Virus record (IMG/VR): IMGVR_UViG_3300005253_000047 | Location: 1-47,681 of that record | Direction: 5' to 3' (one strand) | Source: a virus | Length of the DNA stretch: 47,681 nucleotides | Part shown: positions 9,140 to 41,404 of the stretch, one piece after another | Numbering within the stretch: the first letter of the stretch is position 1 | Layout of the letters: every line of letters begins with the position of its first letter | Program-made: the position numbers and the translations under genes | Notes under the pieces: generated by a model | The model's input: the letters and a program-made list of their open reading frames with translations, nothing else | Database searches by the model: none | What the model was told of the DNA's origin: nothing

Positions 9140-9978
9140 TGCCAGACGACCTAAATTTGGCGTTGGACCGGGAAGTAATCTTAGTTGGTGGTGGACCCAG
9201 TACCGGCAAGTCTCTTAGCATCGTCAAGTTGGCTCTGACCGGCCTCGAAGAGGGATTCAATGTAGTGGTCATCGACCGGGACCGAGGCGTAGCCAAAGCA
9301 GTTAAAGAATTGTGTGGCCGAAAAGCGCCGGATAACATGGACTACTTCATCGCCAAAACCTGGGATGACGTAACTGCCGGGATGGACCACGCCTTCGCCA
9401 ATCTGGAGGCTGGAGACTGGCTCTGCTTTGATATGCTGGGCGCCCTTTGGGACTTGGCTCAAGATGAGTTCACTCGTATGGTCTACAAGGAGGGGTCAAC
9501 CGAGAAAATCCTGGCTCTTCGTATGGAGGCTGAAGCGGTGGTCCGAAAGCACGGTGGGAAAGACGCCGCCAAGGACCGGGCCAAGGGTGTAGGGTTCGAG
9601 GGTCTCGAAGGCCGGTATGACTGGCCTCTCATCAAAAAGATGCACAATGGTGACGTTCGGGACCATGCTATCCTCGATGGGGACTTCAATGTCCTATCTA
9701 CCACCACCATGACTCCTCTTCAGGATGGACAGGGTGACAAGGACAAGTGGCCAATGTTCGCCTCGTTGGGGCGCCGCCCGGAGGGTGAGAAGAACAACGT
9801 GCATAAGCATGACACCTTTCTATTGGCGAAGCAAATGGACAGCCAGTGGACTTGGTCTACACTCCTTGGAGAAGGTCAGGGCAAGGACCGAGGTCGGGAA
9901 CTGGTACGCAACGTGGATTACACAGGTCAAGGCATAGTGGAATCCTACCTGGAGTATCATGCCGAGGACGAAGAGTGA
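9139..9978 (+). CDS. RecA-like AAA ATPase (phage recombinase/Sak4-like)
   Basis: 279 residues from ATG 9139, chosen because GGCAGGAGGAAGACTG lies just upstream and the ATG overlaps the previous stop (TGATG). Walker A is GGGPSTGKS at about residues 18-26; a Walker B-like LCFDML lies near 99. The layout resembles phage RecA-fold ATPases such as Sak4 that anneal or exchange strands. Placement between a RecB-like and an ERCC4-type nuclease supports a recombination or replication-restart role. The acidic C-terminus may contact an SSB partner. Confidence 0.78.
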   Translation: MPDDLNLALDREVILVGGGPSTGKSLSIVKLALTGLEEGFNVVVIDRDRGVAKAVKELCGRKAPDNMDYFIAKTWDDVTAGMDHAFANLEAGDWLCFDMLGALWDLAQDEFTRMVYKEGSTEKILALRMEAEAVVRKHGGKDAAKDRAKGVGFEGLEGRYDWPLIKKMHNGDVRDHAILDGDFNVLSTTTMTPLQDGQGDKDKWPMFASLGRRPEGEKNNVHKHDTFLLAKQMDSQWTWSTLLGEGQGKDRGRELVRNVDYTGQGIVESYLEYHAEDEE

Positions 9979-10226
9979 TGGACTTTTTACTGGGTCTCCT
10001 AACCTGGACGATGGGCATTTCTTTGTGGGCCTCTATCCAGGCTCTCGTTGGGATGTATTTCCTGACTAACCTGAAGAACCGATGGGGTTGCCTAATTAGC
10101 TTGACCAACCAGGTTCCGTGGGTTATCCTGGCCTTCATGGTTGGAACCTACGGTACTCTTCTACTCAGTGGTGCTATGATTTTCATCACTGTCCGGGGTT
10201 GGCTCCGATGGAACAAGAATGTTTGA
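9978..10226 (+). CDS. Two-helix membrane protein, holin candidate
   Basis: 82 residues, ATG in a TGATG overlap. Two hydrophobic segments (about residues 2-30 and 45-73) are separated by a short polar stretch with KNRWG, and the C-terminus is basic. Size and topology are like class II holins, but many phage membrane proteins look alike and the recombination-gene setting is unusual for lysis. Confidence 0.55.
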   Translation: MDFLLGLLTWTMGISLWASIQALVGMYFLTNLKNRWGCLISLTNQVPWVILAFMVGTYGTLLLSGAMIFITVRGWLRWNKNV

Positions 10227-10974
10227 CATCACAGTTGATACCCGAGAGGTCAATGCGAAATCTAATGCGGCTCTCATCCCGGACCTCAAAGACCTGGGTC
10301 TTAGTGTCGACAAGCAACAACTTGATGTGGGTGACTACATACTGCACGACGCCGAGGGTGAAATCTCCCTGGTGACTCGTAAGGCCGGTGACCTATACAC
10401 CTCCATTTTCGACGGCCACTTCGCTGACGAACTGAACCGGTGTATGAAACTCATTGAGTCTCTCGGGGGCCGGGGTAAACTGTTCTGGATACAGGAGGGA
10501 TTATGGTCGACAGTGTATCCCAATGGTGGGAAGGGGGGGATGGATTACTTCAAGCGTTCCGGTCCCAAATGGTTTCGCTCGACCTTTCACAACGGCTCCT
10601 CCGAGAAGGTCTATTCCAACGTCCAACTTTCCCTTACGATGGCCGGGATAATCTTCCTCTCAACTGGAACTCTACACGAGACGGCGCTGATGCTGGCGGC
10701 GATACACGAGAGGGGACAGCAGGGATGGCCCAGCAAGTTAACGTCATCCTTGAGACGACCACAATTACGGTGGTCCGAAGACAGCCGGGTACAGAGGTTG
10801 ATGTCGATATGGCCACACTTGCAAGAAGCATCAGCGACCGCATTGATTCACGAATTCTCGTCGGTCTTCGCTATCTGTTCGCTGGCGATGCACCCTTCCG
10901 ACTACAAGAAACTCCTCGTCGTTCAGGGTATTGGCAAGAAAGGTTTATCCAACTTCCAGGAGGCTCTTAGTTGA
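10219..10974 (+). CDS. ERCC4-type structure-specific nuclease with altered motif
   Basis: 251 residues. N-terminal VDTRE, then VGDYIL and VTRKAGDLYTSIFDGHFADE follow the XPF/Mus81 nuclease pattern VDxRE-GDY-ERKxxxD, and LLVVQGIGKKGL near the C-terminus looks like a helix-hairpin-helix. The expected ERK glutamate is threonine here (TRK), so catalysis may be changed. Such proteins cut branched or flap DNA during replication and recombination. Confidence 0.75.
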   Translation: MFDITVDTREVNAKSNAALIPDLKDLGLSVDKQQLDVGDYILHDAEGEISLVTRKAGDLYTSIFDGHFADELNRCMKLIESLGGRGKLFWIQEGLWSTVYPNGGKGGMDYFKRSGPKWFRSTFHNGSSEKVYSNVQLSLTMAGIIFLSTGTLHETALMLAAIHERGQQGWPSKLTSSLRRPQLRWSEDSRVQRLMSIWPHLQEASATALIHEFSSVFAICSLAMHPSDYKKLLVVQGIGKKGLSNFQEALS

Positions 10975-11318
10975 GTGAGGCACAAAAGTTTGATGTTGAT
11001 AAGCCTCCTTTAGGACTACTATCTCGGATAGCTCTTGAAGAGACAGCCCAGGTTCTGGCCTTTGGCGCCTACAAGTATGGTCGAGATAACTGGCGTGGTG
11101 GGGTGAATTGGCAACGTTACATCGACGCGGCACTTCGACATATCATGGCATTTGCTGAGGGTGAAGATTTGGACCCCGAATCAGGATTGTCGCACATGGC
11201 TCATGCAGCCTGTTGTATCATGTTCTTATTGGAATACGCGAAGACTCACCCCGAGTTCGACAACCGGTATAAGGTATATACCTCAACCGAGGAGGACACT
11301 GATGGAACCCAAGACTAA
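10971..11318 (+). CDS. dATP/dGTP diphosphohydrolase N-terminal family protein (DUF5664-like)
   Basis: 115 residues from TTG overlapping the previous TGA. KFDVDKPPLGLL, LAFGAYKYGRDNWRGG, AALRHIMAF and GEDLDPESGLSHMAHA match the phage family annotated as dATP/dGTP diphosphohydrolase, N-terminal. It probably hydrolyses purine dNTPs or helps a partner do so. The other genes for diaminopurine genomes (PurZ, DatZ) are not present. Confidence 0.75.
   Translation: MSEAQKFDVDKPPLGLLSRIALEETAQVLAFGAYKYGRDNWRGGVNWQRYIDAALRHIMAFAEGEDLDPESGLSHMAHAACCIMFLLEYAKTHPEFDNRYKVYTSTEEDTDGTQD
11269..11286. promoter_or_regulatory. 18-bp palindromic site 3
   Basis: ATAAGGTATATACCTCAA, in the 3' end of the preceding gene and 15 bases before the MazG-like start. 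Confidence 0.7.
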
Positions 11319-11703
11319 AAAATCAACTCGTGCACAGGCGATCAAGGATGCTTACTCTGAAGGATTTTTAGTAGGTAGTCAGGAGACCTCAGTTCTTGGT
11401 CCACTGCAACCTATCTGGGATGCGTGGCGTAAGCATGATGAGTTCATTGACGGCATCCCTAATATCTATTTCCAGACCGTCATCGCTATCCAGTTCAATG
11501 AGATTGATGACCATGTTGAAGCTGGACACCCACCCGAGAAGATTGACAACGAGATAGTGGATGTCATGTCTATCTGTCTGAATTGGCTCCGGTCTCGTGG
11601 CAAGGATGACAAGGGCGTAGCCGCTGCCATCGAAGCTCGGCTGACCCGGTATGCCGACACGCAGGGTATCATCGACAAATATGCACGGGAGTACGGGCTA
11701 TGA
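11302..11703 (+). CDS. MazG-like nucleotide pyrophosphohydrolase
   Basis: 133 residues from ATG 11302. The segment FNEIDDHVEAG, then DNEIVDVMSICLNWL about 20 residues on, resembles the metal-binding ExxE...ExxD arrangement of all-alpha NTP pyrophosphohydrolases. It lies beside the dATP/dGTP hydrolase-like gene, so control of nucleotide pools during replication is likely. The exact substrate is unknown. Stop overlaps the next ATG (ATGA). Confidence 0.6.
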   Translation: MEPKTKKSTRAQAIKDAYSEGFLVGSQETSVLGPLQPIWDAWRKHDEFIDGIPNIYFQTVIAIQFNEIDDHVEAGHPPEKIDNEIVDVMSICLNWLRSRGKDDKGVAAAIEARLTRYADTQGIIDKYAREYGL

Positions 11704-11969
11704 GTAATGATTCGGGACAGTGGGACGGCGAGACCCTTCAACGTAAGGGTAGTCTATACAACTCTTTAAGAGGTATAACTCCTGATGGGGGCCGACCTCG
11801 TGAAGAGCCATTTCGGAACTTCGGTGGTTGGAAATGTCAGAACTGTGGTAGTGGAAACACTGTCATCGAAGGGTATGACTCCGGTCCCGAGGGCTACTGC
11901 ATGACCTGTACCCGGTACATCCCAATTCCCAAGGAGAATCGTCTTGCTTACTCTCGACACTCTCGCTAG
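11700..11969 (+). CDS. Zinc-ribbon hypothetical protein
   Basis: 89 residues, unrecognised. WKCQNCGSGN and GYCMTCTRYI form a two-CxxC zinc ribbon at about residues 44-75. Its 3' end carries the AAGGAG ribosome site of the glycosylase gene. Confidence 0.65.
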   Translation: MSNDSGQWDGETLQRKGSLYNSLRGITPDGGRPREEPFRNFGGWKCQNCGSGNTVIEGYDSGPEGYCMTCTRYIPIPKENRLAYSRHSR

Positions 11970-12549
11970 TTATGTTCGGGACTGCACTGACTGTCCTCTT
12001 CATCGCAAGTGTCGACGCCGGATACCTGGTGTCGGGAGGGGGAGCGCCCGAATCATGGTTGTTGGTCAGGCCGGGGGAATCGAAGAGGACTCCGAGGGTC
12101 TTCCATGGATAGGACAGGCTGGGCAGTGGCTTACTTCCCTTCTTGATATCATGGGTCTTCACTCCAGCACTATTTACTGGACCAATATCATCAAGTGCTT
12201 TCCTGGTCGGAAGAGAGGCAAGGGTGGTGGTGACAACGAGCCTCCGCCGTATGCTGTGGAAGCGTGCCAGGGCTATCTCATTGAGGAGATGCGCCTGGTT
12301 GACCCAGACATCATCGTCGCGGTCGGCGCCTTCGCTATGAAGTGGTTTGGTATCAAGGGCGGCATCAAGATTAACTCGGGCCGCGTCTTTGATACCAAGT
12401 ATGGCCGGGTCATCCCCATCTTGCACCCGGCTGGTATCTTCCGTCACATGGCGGATGCCCCTATGCTACCAACCGCGTTGCACTCCATCCTGACTCAGTT
12501 GGCGGACCCCATTGAGCCGCCCAAGTTCGTGGAGGCTACCAAGTGGTAA
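11944..12549 (+). CDS. Uracil-DNA glycosylase, family 4 (Fe-S type)
   Basis: 201 residues, TTG start supported by AAGGAGAATCGTC. Excises uracil from DNA. VVGQAGGIEEDSEGLPWIGQ matches the family 4 active-site motif, and ILHPAG matches the second catalytic motif. Cysteines in CTDCPL, NIIKCFP and EACQGYL fit the four ligands of the Fe-S cluster. The presence of a phage UDG argues that the genome does not contain uracil in place of thymine. Confidence 0.92.
   Translation: MLTLDTLASYVRDCTDCPLHRKCRRRIPGVGRGSARIMVVGQAGGIEEDSEGLPWIGQAGQWLTSLLDIMGLHSSTIYWTNIIKCFPGRKRGKGGGDNEPPPYAVEACQGYLIEEMRLVDPDIIVAVGAFAMKWFGIKGGIKINSGRVFDTKYGRVIPILHPAGIFRHMADAPMLPTALHSILTQLADPIEPPKFVEATKW
12034..12044 (+). repeat. 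GGGAGGGGGAG motif copy 3
   Basis: Exact plus-strand 11-mer in the glycosylase gene, starting at codon position 1. Confidence 0.9.
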
Positions 12550-12812
12550 CTCGAGTTGTCCACTGCAAACGAGAGGCCTACGATATTCTTATTGACCGAA
12601 GCACTGAGATGGGTAACCCATTTAGAATTGGACGTGATGGCACACGGAAAGAGGTTATTGCCAAGTACCGTGAATGGGCACCCAAACAACCGTGGTTTCA
12701 GTTGGCACTTAAACGAATCCGAGGGAAGATAATTGGTTGCTGGTGTGCTCCTCGGCCATGTCATGGCGACATATTGGCAGAGTTCGCCGATATGGAGGCT
12801 GACCAATGGTGA
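12543..12812 (+). CDS. DUF4326 protein
   Basis: 89 residues, GTG start overlapping the glycosylase stop. MGNPFRIGRDGTRKEVI and IIGCWCAPRPCHGDIL are the conserved blocks of DUF4326, a small phage and bacterial family of unknown function with conserved cysteines and a histidine suggestive of metal binding or catalysis. Confidence 0.85.
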   Translation: MVTRVVHCKREAYDILIDRSTEMGNPFRIGRDGTRKEVIAKYREWAPKQPWFQLALKRIRGKIIGCWCAPRPCHGDILAEFADMEADQW

Positions 12813-13072
12813 TGTGTAGCATCAAGGACTACCCTCTTCGAGCGTATATGCAAGGGGAACTGAAGGTGGCACGACAGAGATTACAGGACCACATGCCGGG
12901 GTGCTACATATCCAGTTGTCTGAGACACGGGACCATCCGCTGTAGTCACGGAATTGAGTGGAGTACGTTCATTCTCCTATGGCCTGACCTCGATTGGAAA
13001 TTGGTAGGGGGTCTTCACGATAGGATGGTAGAGTCTACAGATACGGAGGCCGACACATGGACCCGAGACTGA
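12806..13072 (+). CDS. Hypothetical cysteine-containing protein
   Basis: 88 residues, unrecognised. Cysteines in PGCYISSC and IRCSHG may bind metal. ATG 12806 is eight bases after GGAGG; ATG 12812 would form a TGATG junction instead. Its end overlaps the gene at 13057. Confidence 0.6.
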   Translation: MVMCSIKDYPLRAYMQGELKVARQRLQDHMPGCYISSCLRHGTIRCSHGIEWSTFILLWPDLDWKLVGGLHDRMVESTDTEADTWTRD

Positions 13073-13251
13073 CGGATGAAGAGATAGCCGCCGCGCTGGA
13101 ATTGGGAGGTAGGCTAGATACGGTAGTCAAAGGGCGTGACCGAATCGTAGTCCACGCCGCTACCCGGAAGGCGCTGACGTGGGCTGCTAAGGAATTCAAT
13201 GACCATTCAACGAATCATAATCGGCGCACCATGGTAAATTTGGGAATCTAA
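13057..13251 (+). CDS. Truncated paralogue of the gene at 4948
   Basis: 64 residues. DPRLTDEE and TRKALTWA match the 91-residue paralogue. The homologous C-terminal PWE motif lies just after the TAA stop, so the gene appears cut short by a nonsense change and an internal deletion. Function unknown. Confidence 0.5.
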   Translation: MDPRLTDEEIAAALELGGRLDTVVKGRDRIVVHAATRKALTWAAKEFNDHSTNHNRRTMVNLGI

Positions 13252-13271
13252 CCCTGGGAGGATGGTGCGGA

Positions 13272-14933
13272 ATGTCGCTAGTTAAACCCAAACCCATAGT
13301 TGGCCTCGACACTGAGGTTCAGAATGAGCCGGATGTGTGGTGTGTTGGAATAGCGGACAACAAGAGGCGAACGGCTAGCCAGGACTTGGAAACGTTTCCC
13401 CTCCGTGAGGTGATGCCCGTATTCCACAATGCGAAGTACGACGTGCCCCGTTTGGCTAGAGCCGGTGTGAAATATGATGACTGGCACGACACCATTATTG
13501 AGGCCCATCTCTTAGGATACAAGCCCTTGAACCTACCGTTCCTGTCCGAAACGTTCAATGGAGTCCATCTGGACAAGACCTTCGTCAAGGAGCGGAAGAC
13601 CAAGACCTTCGATCAGCGTCCACAAGAGACCCTGGAGGGCTGTTCACTGGATGCCTGGGCGTCCTACCAACTACATCAGCAATGGTACCCCGAGCTTGAG
13701 CACCGGGGCCTGATTCCGCTGTACGAGAAAGAGAAGAAGGTCACCCGTGTCCTGTGGGAGATGGAGAACCGAGGGCTCCCCCTCGATGAGGGCCGAGTCA
13801 AGATTGCAGCCCGGAATCTCATTCAGAGTATGGGCCGACTTGAGATTACGCTACGTCGCTATGGGATTGAGAATCCTAATGACAAGACGCTCATCGGCCA
13901 GAAGTTCTGGCGGGGTAAAGGGCGTGTTAAGACTACGAAGACTGGTCAATTGGCTACTGGAAAGGACATTCTAAAAGCCTACCGAAAACCCGAGGAGGTA
14001 GAGTGGACCGACGCTGTTATTGAGTGGAGGGCACTGGATAAGCTGAAGTCTACTTACCTCAATAAGTATCTAGGACTGGAGCGTCTTCATCCTAACTTCA
14101 ACCAGACCGGTACCATCTCCTGGAGGTTCTCTTGCTCAGACCCGAATCTCCAGAACGTGCCAAAAAGCAAAACGATGCCCCTGTACCAGCTATTCGTAGC
14201 TCCCGAAGGGTGGACATTCATCAGTGCGGACTACTCTCAGCTTGAGTTACGTCACTTGGCTAATATCTCTCGGGATAAGGCAATGCTGGATGCGTACCTA
14301 CGTGGGGATGATCTTCACCAGGATGCCTTGGACAATACGCCCATTCTCCGCAAGATGTACGAGACAGGCGACCCCTTCCTCATGGATAAGGCTCGACGAT
14401 GGGCCAAGGTCCGTAACTTTGGAATCGCTTATGGAATCACAGCCATCGGCCTGGCACCTAAGATGGAAGTCGAAATAGAGGAAGCCGAGGAATTTATCCA
14501 GGACTGGTACCGTCGCTACCCCGACGTATTACCGTGGCAAGCACTCCAGGTGGCCCACGCTGAAGAGTTCGGGTATGTCCTGACCGGTGAGGACCGGCCC
14601 TTGTATGTACCCGGTATCCATCTGGAGCGCGGGCGTCTTCGTGGCCATGCTGAGAATCAGTGCATCAACCTCCCGGTACAGGGAGGGGGAGCCGAGATAG
14701 TCAAGGACGCGATGCTCCGGTGCAATGAGTACCTAGTGTGTCAAGTCCATGACGAGTTGCTCTATCTAGTACCCACCCACCTGGCTGAGGAGTACGAGAA
14801 ATACCTCTTCGAGGCTCTGGCCGATGACCGATATGAGGTACCATACCCGGTGGAAATCCACGTTGGTGCTTCGTGGGGTGACATCAAGCATATCCCCGAG
14901 GTGATGTTTGACGACGATGACGAAGAGGAGTAA
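13272..14933 (+). CDS. polA: DNA polymerase, family A, with 3'-5' exonuclease
   Basis: 553 residues; the replicative polymerase candidate. The exonuclease domain shows GLDTE (Asp13, Glu15), HNAKYDV and LDAWA. Polymerase motif A is FISADYSQLELRH (Asp320), motif B RRWAKVRNFGIAYGIT (about 376-391) and motif C VHDE (492-495). The 5' nuclease domain of bacterial Pol I is absent, as usual in phages. Ribosome site GGGAGGATGGTGCGG is reasonable. A motif copy (GGGAGGGGGAG) lies in the QGGGAE codons. Confidence 0.97.
   Translation: MSLVKPKPIVGLDTEVQNEPDVWCVGIADNKRRTASQDLETFPLREVMPVFHNAKYDVPRLARAGVKYDDWHDTIIEAHLLGYKPLNLPFLSETFNGVHLDKTFVKERKTKTFDQRPQETLEGCSLDAWASYQLHQQWYPELEHRGLIPLYEKEKKVTRVLWEMENRGLPLDEGRVKIAARNLIQSMGRLEITLRRYGIENPNDKTLIGQKFWRGKGRVKTTKTGQLATGKDILKAYRKPEEVEWTDAVIEWRALDKLKSTYLNKYLGLERLHPNFNQTGTISWRFSCSDPNLQNVPKSKTMPLYQLFVAPEGWTFISADYSQLELRHLANISRDKAMLDAYLRGDDLHQDALDNTPILRKMYETGDPFLMDKARRWAKVRNFGIAYGITAIGLAPKMEVEIEEAEEFIQDWYRRYPDVLPWQALQVAHAEEFGYVLTGEDRPLYVPGIHLERGRLRGHAENQCINLPVQGGGAEIVKDAMLRCNEYLVCQVHDELLYLVPTHLAEEYEKYLFEALADDRYEVPYPVEIHVGASWGDIKHIPEVMFDDDDEEE
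14681..14691 (+). repeat. GGGAGGGGGAG motif copy 4
   Basis: Exact plus-strand 11-mer in the polymerase gene, starting at codon position 3. Confidence 0.9.
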
Positions 14934-16376: not shown

Positions 16377-16453
16377 TGGGGGGTAGAGAAACGGCAATCT
16401 CACTGGCCTCATCAAGCCGGAGACACCTGGTTCGACTCCAGGCCCCCTTACCA
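16377..16453 (+). tRNA. tRNA, Met-like (CAT) with 8-base anticodon loop
   Basis: Cloverleaf: acceptor TGGGGGG with CCCCCTT (first pair mismatched), D stem GAGA/TCTC, anticodon stem CTGGC/GCCGG, T arm CCTGG-TTCGACT-CCAGG, discriminator A and encoded CCA. The anticodon loop is CTCATCAA, the elongator Met loop CTCATAA with an extra C after the anticodon. Decoding ability is uncertain. Confidence 0.75.
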
Positions 16454-16610: not shown

Positions 16611-16686
16611 GGCGCGGTAGCTCAATTTGGCAGAGCACCACCGGTGGACGGTGGAGACGAAGGTTCGTTCCCTTCCCGCGCCTCCA
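16611..16686 (+). tRNA. tRNA, TGG by position (Pro-like), G33 anticodon loop
   Basis: Well-formed cloverleaf: acceptor GGCGCGG/CCGCGCC (7 pairs), D arm GCTC-AATTTGGCA-GAGC, anticodon stem CCACC/GGTGG, T arm GAAGG-TTCGTTC-CCTTC, discriminator T and encoded CCA. The anticodon loop GGTGGAC lacks U33. The neighbouring gene starts eight bases downstream. Confidence 0.75.
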
Positions 16687-25946: not shown

Positions 25947-26912
25947 TTAGATGGGAACCACTCCCCGTAGCCGGACCACCGACTTGATGGCGAAGGACGA
26001 GAGACCCACGGGCCACTCGAACACCGTCCGATGGGTGACACCGTCGTTGATGATGTCATCGTAGATGCGCCTGGGCTCGTGCATCTGCCAGCCCTGGATG
26101 TGCTGTTTGTCGAACCGTATGAAGTAGAAGCTGGTGGCGGTGCCTCCGGTCGAGGCGCCAGCGTTCGTCTCCGTACTGGTTATAATCTGGGTGGTCTGGT
26201 CACCGGTGGTACCGGCCTCCTCGAAGGGCATACCCCGGAACAGAGGAACAGTCTTATCGAACTGGTCCTTGGTGGTATCCAAAAGACCTTCCCGACGTGC
26301 CACCCGGCCAAGGGCGAACCTTCCTTTCTTGGAGGTAAGGATTAGGTCTACCTGACCTTCGTCCACCTCGTACATTGCCGTCTCTAGGTGGTCCAGGAAA
26401 GTTTGCCGGTTGGCACTGGAGGAACTGATGTCCAGGCCCGCAGCCTCAATGACCTGGTCCAAGCCCACGCCACCAGCGACAAAAGCGGCTTCAACACGCT
26501 TTTTGATACCGTCAAAGCGGTCGGGGTTGACATCCCGGTCTCCGTTGATAAAGGTATTGGTGAAACCGTATTGGTACCGCTTGGACTGCAACAGAAGGTT
26601 CTCAGCCCAGGCGTCAATTTCCCGCTGGCCAGGGAGTCGAAGCGCCCGGTCAACGTCAATGGAGCCGCCCAGGAGGTAGATGCCTTCGTTCAGTTCAGAG
26701 AACTTGTCCTTGGTCTCGGTATAGGGACTTCCGATGTCCCGGAAGACCGCGTCAGTCACCGACTTGTTCTGCCAGGTCTTGATGGTGAAACTGTCCGTGG
26801 CCTCGAAGGAGATTTTCTGGAAGAGTTGACTGGCACGGGCATATTGCAAGATGATTCCAGCCATCACCTGGTCTTTCATGCCAGCAGCCATTTCTGCTAT
26901 GGTCAGAGCCAT
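25947..26912 (-). CDS. Major capsid protein
   Basis: 321 residues. Located directly after a scaffold-like gene and in the portal-scaffold-capsid order. The N-terminal helical region, FRDIGSPYTETKDKFSELNEGIYLLGGSIDVDRAL strand-helix pattern in the first third, and NTFINGD suit an HK97-fold shell protein. Strong ribosome site and the downstream hairpin fit high expression. No cleavage protease gene is evident. Confidence 0.75.
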   Translation of the reverse strand: MALTIAEMAAGMKDQVMAGIILQYARASQLFQKISFEATDSFTIKTWQNKSVTDAVFRDIGSPYTETKDKFSELNEGIYLLGGSIDVDRALRLPGQREIDAWAENLLLQSKRYQYGFTNTFINGDRDVNPDRFDGIKKRVEAAFVAGGVGLDQVIEAAGLDISSSSANRQTFLDHLETAMYEVDEGQVDLILTSKKGRFALGRVARREGLLDTTKDQFDKTVPLFRGMPFEEAGTTGDQTTQIITSTETNAGASTGGTATSFYFIRFDKQHIQGWQMHEPRRIYDDIINDGVTHRTVFEWPVGLSSFAIKSVVRLRGVVPI

Positions 26913-37460: not shown

Positions 37461-37701
37461 ACAACTTTGTCCTTAGAAGAATTGAGTCGAGACCACTCTG
37501 GTCCGCCCACCATTGGAAATCGGGACTGTCTATAAACTGACGTGCTTCATCTTGGAGTTGTACACGTTCAAGTGTAACACGTTCAGCGTATGAAAGTCTA
37601 CGTTGTGCATACGGACGGCTATCTAGTGTACAGCCTCTTCCGGCTAGGTCACTACATATGCACTTCCAGAATGCTGCTAGAAGTAGTTCTTCAGGATGCA
37701 T
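37450..37701 (-). CDS. Hypothetical protein between terminase and portal
   Basis: 83 residues from ATG 37701, overlapping the terminase end by 11 bases and the portal start by 11. Unrecognised; cysteines in CICSDLAGRGC may bind metal. A longer frame to 37866 would lie inside the terminase gene and is unlikely. Confidence 0.6.
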   Translation of the reverse strand: MHPEELLLAAFWKCICSDLAGRGCTLDSRPYAQRRLSYAERVTLERVQLQDEARQFIDSPDFQWWADQSGLDSILLRTKLYGY

Positions 37702-39271
37702 AGACCAACACCTTTCCTCTGCCACGACATGTCCGGCATTTAGCTCTCTCTTCGGGGATATCCTCACACGTCCAGCAAATAATTGTTTTCGTCCCTTCAA
37801 ACGGATTACTCTTGCCCCAGTCAATGTGGATAACCGGCTCCCCCTCCCTATGGGCTTTTCCGTCAACGTAGGACTTGGGAGTAAGGTCTCCTATTGGGGC
37901 AGGTTGATTCACCGACATGTGCCAGGCAAGGGCAAGGGACATTACCTCATCGTCGTTACCGGATAGACCCTCAAACTTATTTTCCTCCTCGTTGTAACCA
38001 AATCCTAGCATCTCATTGATCGTTGACTCAGAGAAGAGGGAGAGTGCTCCTGTACGTATGGCCTGTTCAAGCCCTGAGAGCAATTCCTGGCGGTTATCGT
38101 GGGTAGTGTGCCAACAGGGTATGTTTTTGCTCCGATGGTAGATACGGTGCTTAGGATGCCGTCCTAGTAGGTCCGTACCATCGGTAAGAACCTTGACTAC
38201 CAAGCGCCCCTGCGGTTGCTCCTCAATGTTAGTCATCGGGAAGTTGTACATGGAAAGGAGCTTTAGAGCCTCATCGGAGAACTGTTCGATGGGTATCTGA
38301 GTATGAATCTTGGCAGCCTGACATCCTAGTGTCACGTCGATGATTTGAAGAACGGAGTAGTCCCGACCAGCGATGCCTAGTGCTGTGTCGATACCGGCCA
38401 CGTAGGTGTGCTCAGGGTCGTATTCTACCCATATCTCAGCAGGCCCCAGTTGCCGGGAGGGGGAGCAGACGGGCATCTCGTGAAGCATCTGGACCGCGAA
38501 CATACAGGTACCAGCTACGAGGAAGGCATCAGCCTCCTTGAGCGGATACTCTTGCCAGGCCATGTACGCAGCCATATCGGATTCTTGTTTCTTGTGCCAC
38601 GCCTCGTCGCGGCCTGGACGGACCGTGTAGGGAATGAAGACCGGGATGAAACTGTTGAGCTTCTTCTTTGCCTCAATCCAAATACGATGGAAGGTATTAT
38701 TCTTTCCGTTGGCCGTAGAGAGGCCGACTAGCTTGCCGTGTTCTACTACGGGGAGAATGGCTGTGAAGTTGACCTCAGCATACTGCTGGAAGGCCCACTC
38801 GTCCAGGAAGACGATGGAGGCGTTCTCCATTCGACCCGAACCCTCTGTGGCGGGGAAGGATTGAATCTTCGAGTTCATTAGCGGGAAGTTGACCAACTGG
38901 TCGTTGTTCTTGTCGAAAGGAATTTGGAGCCATTCGGGGAGTAGACCGTGCATAAATACCACACGGTTCTTCATACCGATGGATTCAGTCTCACGACGGG
39001 AAAACATTAGGACGTTGGAAGAGTGCTTAAATGTGACGTACCAAAGAGCGATGGCGCAGACTAACCAGGTGATACCTATTTGCCGGGCCTTGAGGATGAT
39101 GACTCGGTCATTCGCGTCTATAATTTGGGTGAGTTGCTGAAGATGAAGCCATGGCGCCAGAGAAATGATTCCTTCAGACGGGTCACTGATTTGAGCGTAG
39201 TTCGAGATGAAGTGCCACTTGTCAGCGGCGCACTTGGCATACTCGTCGATATACTCGGGAGGAACTATCAT
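37691..39271 (-). CDS. terL: Terminase large subunit
   Basis: 526 residues; packages DNA using ATPase and nuclease domains. Walker A-like KARQIGIT at 61-68, Walker B IVFLDE with Asp157-Glu158, and nuclease acids in GIDTALG (Asp295) and NDDEVMSLALAWH. An unusual addition is a C-terminal zinc module, CWTC and CRTCRGRG, in the last 35 residues. Overlaps the small-subunit gene by four bases. Confidence 0.95.
   Translation of the reverse strand: MIVPPEYIDEYAKCAADKWHFISNYAQISDPSEGIISLAPWLHLQQLTQIIDANDRVIILKARQIGITWLVCAIALWYVTFKHSSNVLMFSRRETESIGMKNRVVFMHGLLPEWLQIPFDKNNDQLVNFPLMNSKIQSFPATEGSGRMENASIVFLDEWAFQQYAEVNFTAILPVVEHGKLVGLSTANGKNNTFHRIWIEAKKKLNSFIPVFIPYTVRPGRDEAWHKKQESDMAAYMAWQEYPLKEADAFLVAGTCMFAVQMLHEMPVCSPSRQLGPAEIWVEYDPEHTYVAGIDTALGIAGRDYSVLQIIDVTLGCQAAKIHTQIPIEQFSDEALKLLSMYNFPMTNIEEQPQGRLVVKVLTDGTDLLGRHPKHRIYHRSKNIPCWHTTHDNRQELLSGLEQAIRTGALSLFSESTINEMLGFGYNEEENKFEGLSGNDDEVMSLALAWHMSVNQPAPIGDLTPKSYVDGKAHREGEPVIHIDWGKSNPFEGTKTIICWTCEDIPEERAKCRTCRGRGKVLVYAS
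37838..37848 (-). repeat. GGGAGGGGGAG motif, the only minus-strand exact copy
   Basis: CTCCCCCTCCC on the plus strand, inside the terminase gene. The only exact copy in this orientation. Confidence 0.9.
38455..38465 (+). repeat. GGGAGGGGGAG motif copy 9
   Basis: Exact plus-strand 11-mer in the minus-strand terminase gene; CTCCCCCTCCC starts at codon position 3. Confidence 0.9.
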
Positions 39272-39746: not shown

Positions 39747-39776
39747 TTGACGTATTATCGGTAGGTGTGTTAATAT
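39747..39776 (+). promoter_or_regulatory. Candidate promoter for the right plus-strand block
   Basis: TTGACG, 18-base spacer, TAATAT, ending seven bases before the start of the gene at 39783. It lies in the 74-base gap between divergent gene blocks. Confidence 0.55.
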
Positions 39777-40728: not shown

Positions 40729-40920
40729 ATGGACATCGCTAAGTCATTCATTAGGGCTTACGGGCCAATTGGCGCATCAGCCATCCGTAATCACCTACGT
40801 GAGCAAACCAATCTGAATCTAGCGGAACGTCAGGCCGCAATCGATACCCTCGTATCCACGGGCGAGATTTCGGAAACAGAGGATTCTAATCGCTTCAGGC
40901 GCATATACGACATAGTCTAA
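40729..40920 (+). CDS. Small winged-helix-like protein
   Basis: 63 residues. The pattern IGASAIRNHLREQTNLNLAERQAAIDTLVSTGEI is compatible with a winged helix-turn-helix. Ribosome site GTGAGGTTATCAA. It is the only small DNA-binding candidate near the palindromic sites and could be their regulator; this is speculative. The hammerhead ribozyme begins right after its stop. Confidence 0.55.
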   Translation: MDIAKSFIRAYGPIGASAIRNHLREQTNLNLAERQAAIDTLVSTGEISETEDSNRFRRIYDIV

Positions 40921-40978
40921 ACCGCAGTCCACCCTTAATTGGGTGCTGATGAGCCCAGGCAACGGGCGAAACTGAGGT
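40921..40978 (+). ncRNA. Type III hammerhead ribozyme
   Basis: All core bases are present. Stem III: ACCGCA with TGAGGT (one G-A mismatch) next to the conserved GTC/GAAAC pairing. Stem I: CACCC (40930-40934) with GGGTG (40941-40945), loop TTAATT. Core CTGATGA (40946-40952). Stem II: GCCC with GGGC, loop AGGCAAC. Then GAAA (40968-40971). Self-cleavage is predicted after C40929. The GAGG in stem III is the likely ribosome site for the gene at 40984. Confidence 0.92.
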
Positions 40979-40983
40979 AAAAC

Positions 40984-41169
40984 ATGGCTATCACACGGAC
41001 CAAACAGGATTGGTCGATTGGTGCGATTGTCAAGGTGGGATTTCTATCCCTCCGGGTGCTTTCACACCGTGCGGAGTATGACGGCTTGCCAGACATCTAT
41101 ACCCTAGAATCAATAGACGGCAGTCGCCAGTACGAGTTCATCCCGCACAACGGCCTACATCGGATTTAG
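40984..41169 (+). CDS. Hypothetical 61-residue protein
   Basis: Unrecognised; a small beta-rich, possibly SH3-like sequence (SIGAIVKVGFLSLRVLS). Its ribosome site lies within the hammerhead ribozyme, so ribozyme folding or cleavage may affect its translation. Confidence 0.65.
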   Translation: MAITRTKQDWSIGAIVKVGFLSLRVLSHRAEYDGLPDIYTLESIDGSRQYEFIPHNGLHRI

Positions 41170-41289: not shown

Positions 41290-41404
41290 AGGCCACCGGG
41301 TGGCGAATAGCGGTCCTAGCGACGGCAAGCAACCCATCGGCTATCGTGTAGGTGAGGTGAATCGGGGTACTTAGCGTACTTACTAAGTCATCCCCTACAC
41401 GATA
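41290..41404 (+). ncRNA. Structured non-coding region
   Basis: An 11-bp perfect outer stem, TATCGTGTAGG (41342-41352) with CCTACACGATA (41394-41404), encloses an inner stem ACTTAG/CTAAGT. Just upstream a GCCAC-CGG-GTGGC hairpin occurs. No standard ribozyme, tRNA or riboswitch pattern was recognised. Perhaps a leader RNA controlling the gene at 41443. Confidence 0.5.

Follow-up and report, generated by a model that had tools for sequence, protein, structure and literature searches.

A candidate type III hammerhead ribozyme between two small ORFs of a tailed phage, with the downstream Shine-Dalgarno sequence inside stem III

Background

Clustered hammerhead ribozymes have been described between the genes of phages and prophages, among them HHphage of the haloviruses HF1 and HF2, with a start codon 13 nt downstream of it (Perreault et al. 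2011, PMC3088659). In that paper, clustered phage hammerheads were shown to be active, a halovirus transcript 5' end maps no more than 3 nt from the hammerhead cut, and hammerheads were proposed to process long phage transcripts into single-gene messages (PMC3088659). The role of hammerheads in phage and bacterial DNA was regarded as an open question in a 2017 review (PMC6155905).

No report of a natural hammerhead that sequesters a Shine-Dalgarno (SD) sequence was found in the open-access literature, subscription papers and preprints being largely outside the scope of the search. An artificial hammerhead switch design based on SD sequestering reportedly came from Wieland and Hartig in 2008. 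Artificial hammerhead and twister switches, including twister P1/P3 designs, work by SD sequestering (PMC5052635).

Here we analyze a hammerhead in the virus record IMGVR_UViG_3300005253_000047, whose whole stretch of 47,681 nucleotides is referred to as the window. The preliminary description presented this element as a lone curiosity; only one copy was found in the window, and inter-gene phage hammerheads are documented (PMC3088659) and common. The element resembles the hammerheads of Perreault et al. in that it is located in phage DNA between co-directional small genes, and differs from them in its single copy, in its near-exact fit to the gap, and in an SD held by stem III, a feature not mentioned for those phage hammerheads in the available part of the paper (PMC3088659). 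It would share with the artificial SD-sequestering switches an SD in an outer ribozyme stem, the partner strand of which would be parted by cleavage, whereas it is natural, has no ligand domain that could be seen, and has an SD helix broken by a mismatch.

Results

The window is the record of a tailed phage, as indicated by its terminase, head protein and DNA polymerase. The genes and open reading frames (ORFs) used for orientation are:

13272-14933, plus strand: DNA polymerase
25947-26912, minus strand: major head protein
37691-39271, minus strand: terminase
40729-40920, plus strand: upstream small ORF of 63 aa, with an SD-like GAGGT before its ATG and its TAA at 40918-40920
40984-41169, plus strand: downstream small ORF of 61 aa, with 14 IMG/VR relatives of 58-78% identity

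The ribozyme is located in the rightward arm, past a stretch of roughly 1 kb with few called genes. A promoter-like site was noted at 39747-39776, where promoter matches were not clearly above those in shuffled sequences. The hammerhead is outside coding sequence, between two small ORFs on the same strand. The upstream ORF is an open frame but has a weak coding score, no relatives of it were detected and family searches gave nothing significant; it may not be a gene. Elsewhere in the window, a 14-bp inverted repeat (93% complementary, with a 35-nt loop) was found at 41342-41404, where no gene was called, and two tRNA genes were found at 16377-16450 and 16611-16683 (41.0 and 51.1 bits, respectively), the weaker of which was missing from the default gathering scan despite exceeding the gathering score.

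The intergenic gap from the TAA (40918-40920) to the ATG (40984) is 63 nt long, and the hammerhead takes the first 58 of these. Its parts, with the basis of each assignment, are:

40921-40978, plus strand: type III hammerhead ribozyme, complete by sequence (sequence, RF00008 and R1 models, fold)
40921-40928, plus strand: 5' strand of stem III, ACCGCAGU, covering the downstream SD as well (sequence, fold)
40929-40930, plus strand: predicted cleavage site, C17 (40929) / C (40930) (alignment to RF00008 and R1)
40930-40945, plus strand: stem I hairpin CACCC-UUAAUU-GGGUG (sequence, fold)
40946-40952, plus strand: catalytic core CUGAUGA (sequence, RF00008 alignment)
40953-40967, plus strand: stem II hairpin GCCC-AGGCAAC-GGGC (sequence, fold)
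40968-40971, plus strand: core GAA (40968-40970) and A15.1 (40971) (sequence, RF00008 alignment)
40974-40978, plus strand: SD GAGGU of the downstream gene, in the outer part of the stem III 3' strand, 5 nt before the ATG

As RNA, 40921-40978 reads ACCGCAGUC / CACCC-UUAAUU-GGGUG CUGAUGA GCCC-AGGCAAC-GGGC GAA ACUGAGGU, with the slash at the predicted cut. Stem I has 5 pairs (CACCC 40930-40934 with GGGTG 40941-40945) and stem II has 4 (GCCC 40953-40956 with GGGC 40964-40967). In stem III, 40921-40928 faces 40971-40978 in the order A-U, C-G, C-G, G.A mismatch, C-G, A-U, G-C, U-A, that is, 7 pairs and one G.A mismatch (40924/40975). All core letters are standard, the A15.1-U16.1 pair is present (A40971-U40928), and GTC stands before the predicted cut, so that H17 is C40929 and not G. 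Stems I and II are closed by loops and stem III is open, which is the type III topology. The preliminary description had listed GTC, CTGATGA and GAAA as present, had the ribozyme start directly after the stop codon (TAA 40918-40920, element from 40921) and had assigned it to type III, all of which agrees with the sequence, the topology and both models. Its cut nine bases past the upstream stop also coincides with the predicted one, at 40929/40930, where C17 is placed at 40929 by alignment. Its helices of 5 and 4 pairs were correct, while its third helix of about 8 pairs is the interrupted stem III, and the six bases given to the next start codon are actually five (40979-40983).

A covariance search, suggested in the preliminary description as a check, supported the assignment. 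The Rfam model RF00008 (Hammerhead_3) aligned with the element end to end at 42.1 bits (E 6.9e-8 for 501 nt and 1.5e-9 for the genome). A second model, R1, which was built from 43 aligned phage type III hammerheads among the matches listed and from which the window was left out, scored 40921-40978 at 46.1 bits (E 2e-11), and the runner-up in the window reached 10.9 bits. Of 2000 Markov genomes that matched the window in length and dinucleotide composition, not one combined an exact core with stems of 5/4/4 pairs or longer. At the level of sequence, 40921-40978 is confirmed as a real type III hammerhead, beyond chance. It shares with RF00008 all core nucleotides, the three stems, the open stem III, the U16.1-A15.1 pair and C as H17, and differs in its score, in its short 5-pair stem I, in the G.A of stem III and in having no evident pseudoknot between loop I and loop II.

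The score of 42.1 bits is below the RF00008 gathering score of 48.5, which is an annotation cut-off and not a structural property. Because of this, and because a window-wide cmscan with Rfam did not list a hammerhead at 40921-40978, routine annotation would miss the element. The Rfam cut-off under-calls phage hammerheads, since L109 was the only clear type III case in the scans to reach 48.5. Hammerheads of types I, II and HH9 were also sought in the window and none was found; a weak type II match at 40914-40964 is an overlap with the type III element itself and not a second hammerhead.

The search for the element at the same locus in relatives was negative. The 14 phages that encode a relative of the downstream protein have no hammerhead, either at this place or in the rest of their records. 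L003 and L005, which keep the order of terminase, divergent genes and downstream 61-aa gene, are among them, and a hairpin-bearing gap in L003 had no Rfam family match. As the upstream ORF and the major head protein have no relatives found and identity to the terminase relatives is only about 30%, there was no close genome for comparison, and conservation at the locus could not be demonstrated. As far as can be seen from the hammerhead-free relatives, the ribozyme is specific to the lineage of the window. Annotated phage records gave no match for the region or for either flanking protein, and a search for the same loop II gave only unrelated cases, in L153.

To place the element among other phage hammerheads, sequences were gathered by the pattern CTGATGAGNCCN{4,16}GGNCGAAAC and then classed by topology, the sample being the matches listed. 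Stem positions were 98.5% paired in this collection, a value that is partly circular because the sequences were picked by their stems. Genes around the non-redundant phage hammerheads were called with a simple purpose-made finder. Inter-gene hammerheads are common in phages of IMG/VR, and the placement seen in the window recurs in 167 others among the matches listed: 156 of the 167 avoid the called genes (about 20% expected by random placement), 124 of the 132 with genes on both sides are between co-directional ones, and 73 are within 60 nt of the neighbouring gene on either side, against some 2.5% expected. In L107, type III copies have zero bases between stop, ribozyme and ATG. L207 carries one type III and then six type II hammerheads, nearly all exactly between consecutive genes of about 100 aa.

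Several further features of these loci were observed. The hammerhead row of L207 spans 9440-13575, and L207, L175, L219, L229 and L239 have operons led by an SD-bearing type III hammerhead and followed by a type II row among small genes, with a tmRNA-like match near the hammerhead operon in L207, L219 and L229. In all 19 phage type III hammerheads among the matches listed that have 15-60 nt between the stop codon and stem III, this space is taken up by a hairpin reaching as far as stem III (z -1.5 to -7.5); the loci include L018, L037, L045, L046, L047, L062, L071, L076, L079, L083, L087, L091, L096, L101, L105, L115 and L134. After cleavage such a hairpin, which is absent from the window, would close off the upstream mRNA at its 3' end in a terminator-like manner. 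In phage type I hammerheads (L016-L135), stem I mostly overlaps or abuts the upstream stop (gap about -10 to +4), and the ribozyme is often 16-48 nt before the next start, a mirror image of the type III placement.

The SD of the downstream gene, GAGGU, has a computed energy of -6.9 kcal/mol with the anti-SD and forms part of the 3' strand of stem III. This arrangement raises the question of ribozyme-gated translation, in which stem III would hide the SD until cleavage, acting as an on-switch or insulator; such gating would extend the cis-cleavage reading set out below and is not opposed to it. All contigs of IMG/VR were searched for the hammerhead core followed by GAGG. Type III topology was assigned to 12 of the matches, one of them the window. 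A start codon follows 6-12 nt beyond in 12 of 12, although the search itself demanded GAGG, several of the loci are related, and a nearby start is in part to be expected of a phage hammerhead. The length of stem III is the non-trivial part of this survey, with a median of 8.5 pairs in the SD-bearing hammerheads against 5 in the others (p 3e-4).

In L175, L194, L215, L219 and L220, stem III has as its 5' strand an anti-SD sequence (for example CTCCTCGTC) that pairs with the entire SD, in one of two registers (CTCCTCGTC with ACGAGGAG, or CCTCACGTC with ACGTGAGG), and the computed cost of opening the SD falls by 3.2-9.2 kcal/mol on cleavage. The same layout of an SD in stem III was found in L239, a contig labelled Acidimicrobiaceae MAG, and the artificial hammerhead and twister switches run on identical logic (PMC5052635). 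In the window, by contrast, the G.A mismatch falls within the SD, and the predicted unmasking by cleavage is just 0.3-1.4 kcal/mol in most flank choices, so that strong SD unmasking is not clearly supported there. Moreover, a fast ribozyme that is always cut would leave no room for switching. We consider gated translation at this locus rather doubtful. A tentative proposal of wider scope is that phages naturally use hammerheads as cleavage-gated ribosome binding sites with an SD/anti-SD stem III, of which the window would be a weaker instance. L175, L194, L219, L220 and L239 might then be the strong instances, and the downstream gene would possibly be translated well only once the ribozyme had severed it from the upstream message.

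In L175, L207, L215 and L229, the type III hammerhead is preceded by a conserved non-coding leader that is GC-rich and at least 150 nt long (200 nt were examined). The leader had no Rfam match, and most of these loci differ in their downstream genes, which suggests that leader, ribozyme and SD form a reused cassette in these four.

Discussion

The lowest-energy fold computed for the element is the hammerhead itself (-21 kcal/mol, z -1.6). Its ensemble probability is 0.24-0.38, varying with the flank, which is ordinary in comparison with the median of 0.33 in 48 other phage type III hammerheads among the matches listed. Roughly half of the computed ensemble has another pairing in place of stems I and II, each of which is CCC/GGG. 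By inspection, loop I (UUAAUU) and loop II (AGGCAAC) offer a UU/AA contact at most and no clear pseudoknot, and the speed of cleavage at cellular magnesium is uncertain for this reason. Loop pseudoknots occur in about 40% of known hammerheads (PMC3088659).

The alternative pairing and the score under the Rfam gathering level would also be compatible with a degenerate hammerhead, a relic or chance match that has stopped cutting, and in the experiments of Perreault et al. no cleavage was seen for 4 of the 18 hammerheads that fitted the consensus (PMC3088659). An inactive element is nevertheless unlikely, because the core is unaltered at every position, the scores are far over background, and the placement from stop to start is exact. 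That the two stable hairpins just upstream of the SD are an ordinary structured 5' leader or attenuator, hammerhead-like by chance, is highly improbable, because the unpaired CUGAUGA, GAA and GUC are all exact and the chance of this is less than 1 in 2000 same-size genomes.

The reading preferred here, to which we give a probability of roughly 85%, is that of a type III hammerhead acting in cis, located on the right-hand arm of the phage, that cuts itself at 40929/40930 and separates two cistrons. Both ORFs would be carried on one RNA by co-transcription, and once the polymerase had passed 40978 the RNA would fold and cleave itself at the 40929/40930 junction. The upstream messenger would then carry a 2',3'-cyclic phosphate at its end, nine bases past the stop codon, and the downstream messenger would begin with a 5'-OH and with the stem I hairpin at its first base, its SD freed from the partner strand. 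A 5'-OH together with a 5'-terminal hairpin could shift the lifetime of a bacterial mRNA either way. With the cistrons separated, the stability and translation of each could differ, which may affect expression. While terminating at 40920, a ribosome would sit over the 5' strand of stem III, and cutting may therefore compete with upstream translation. The placement of hammerheads in the phage survey agrees with the proposal of single-gene messages and with the halovirus 5' end, both of Perreault et al. (PMC3088659).

Conclusions

Hammerheads between phage genes are already known, and the specialist interest of this locus is the SD in stem III, a feature which the preliminary description overlooked and which is weak here and strong in relatives. 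The survey provides a testable anatomy, in which the ribozyme fills the space from stop to start and the predicted cut falls just after the stop, with a subset in which stem III keeps the SD locked. If the cut sets that SD free, phages would have evolved a switch that synthetic biologists built later.
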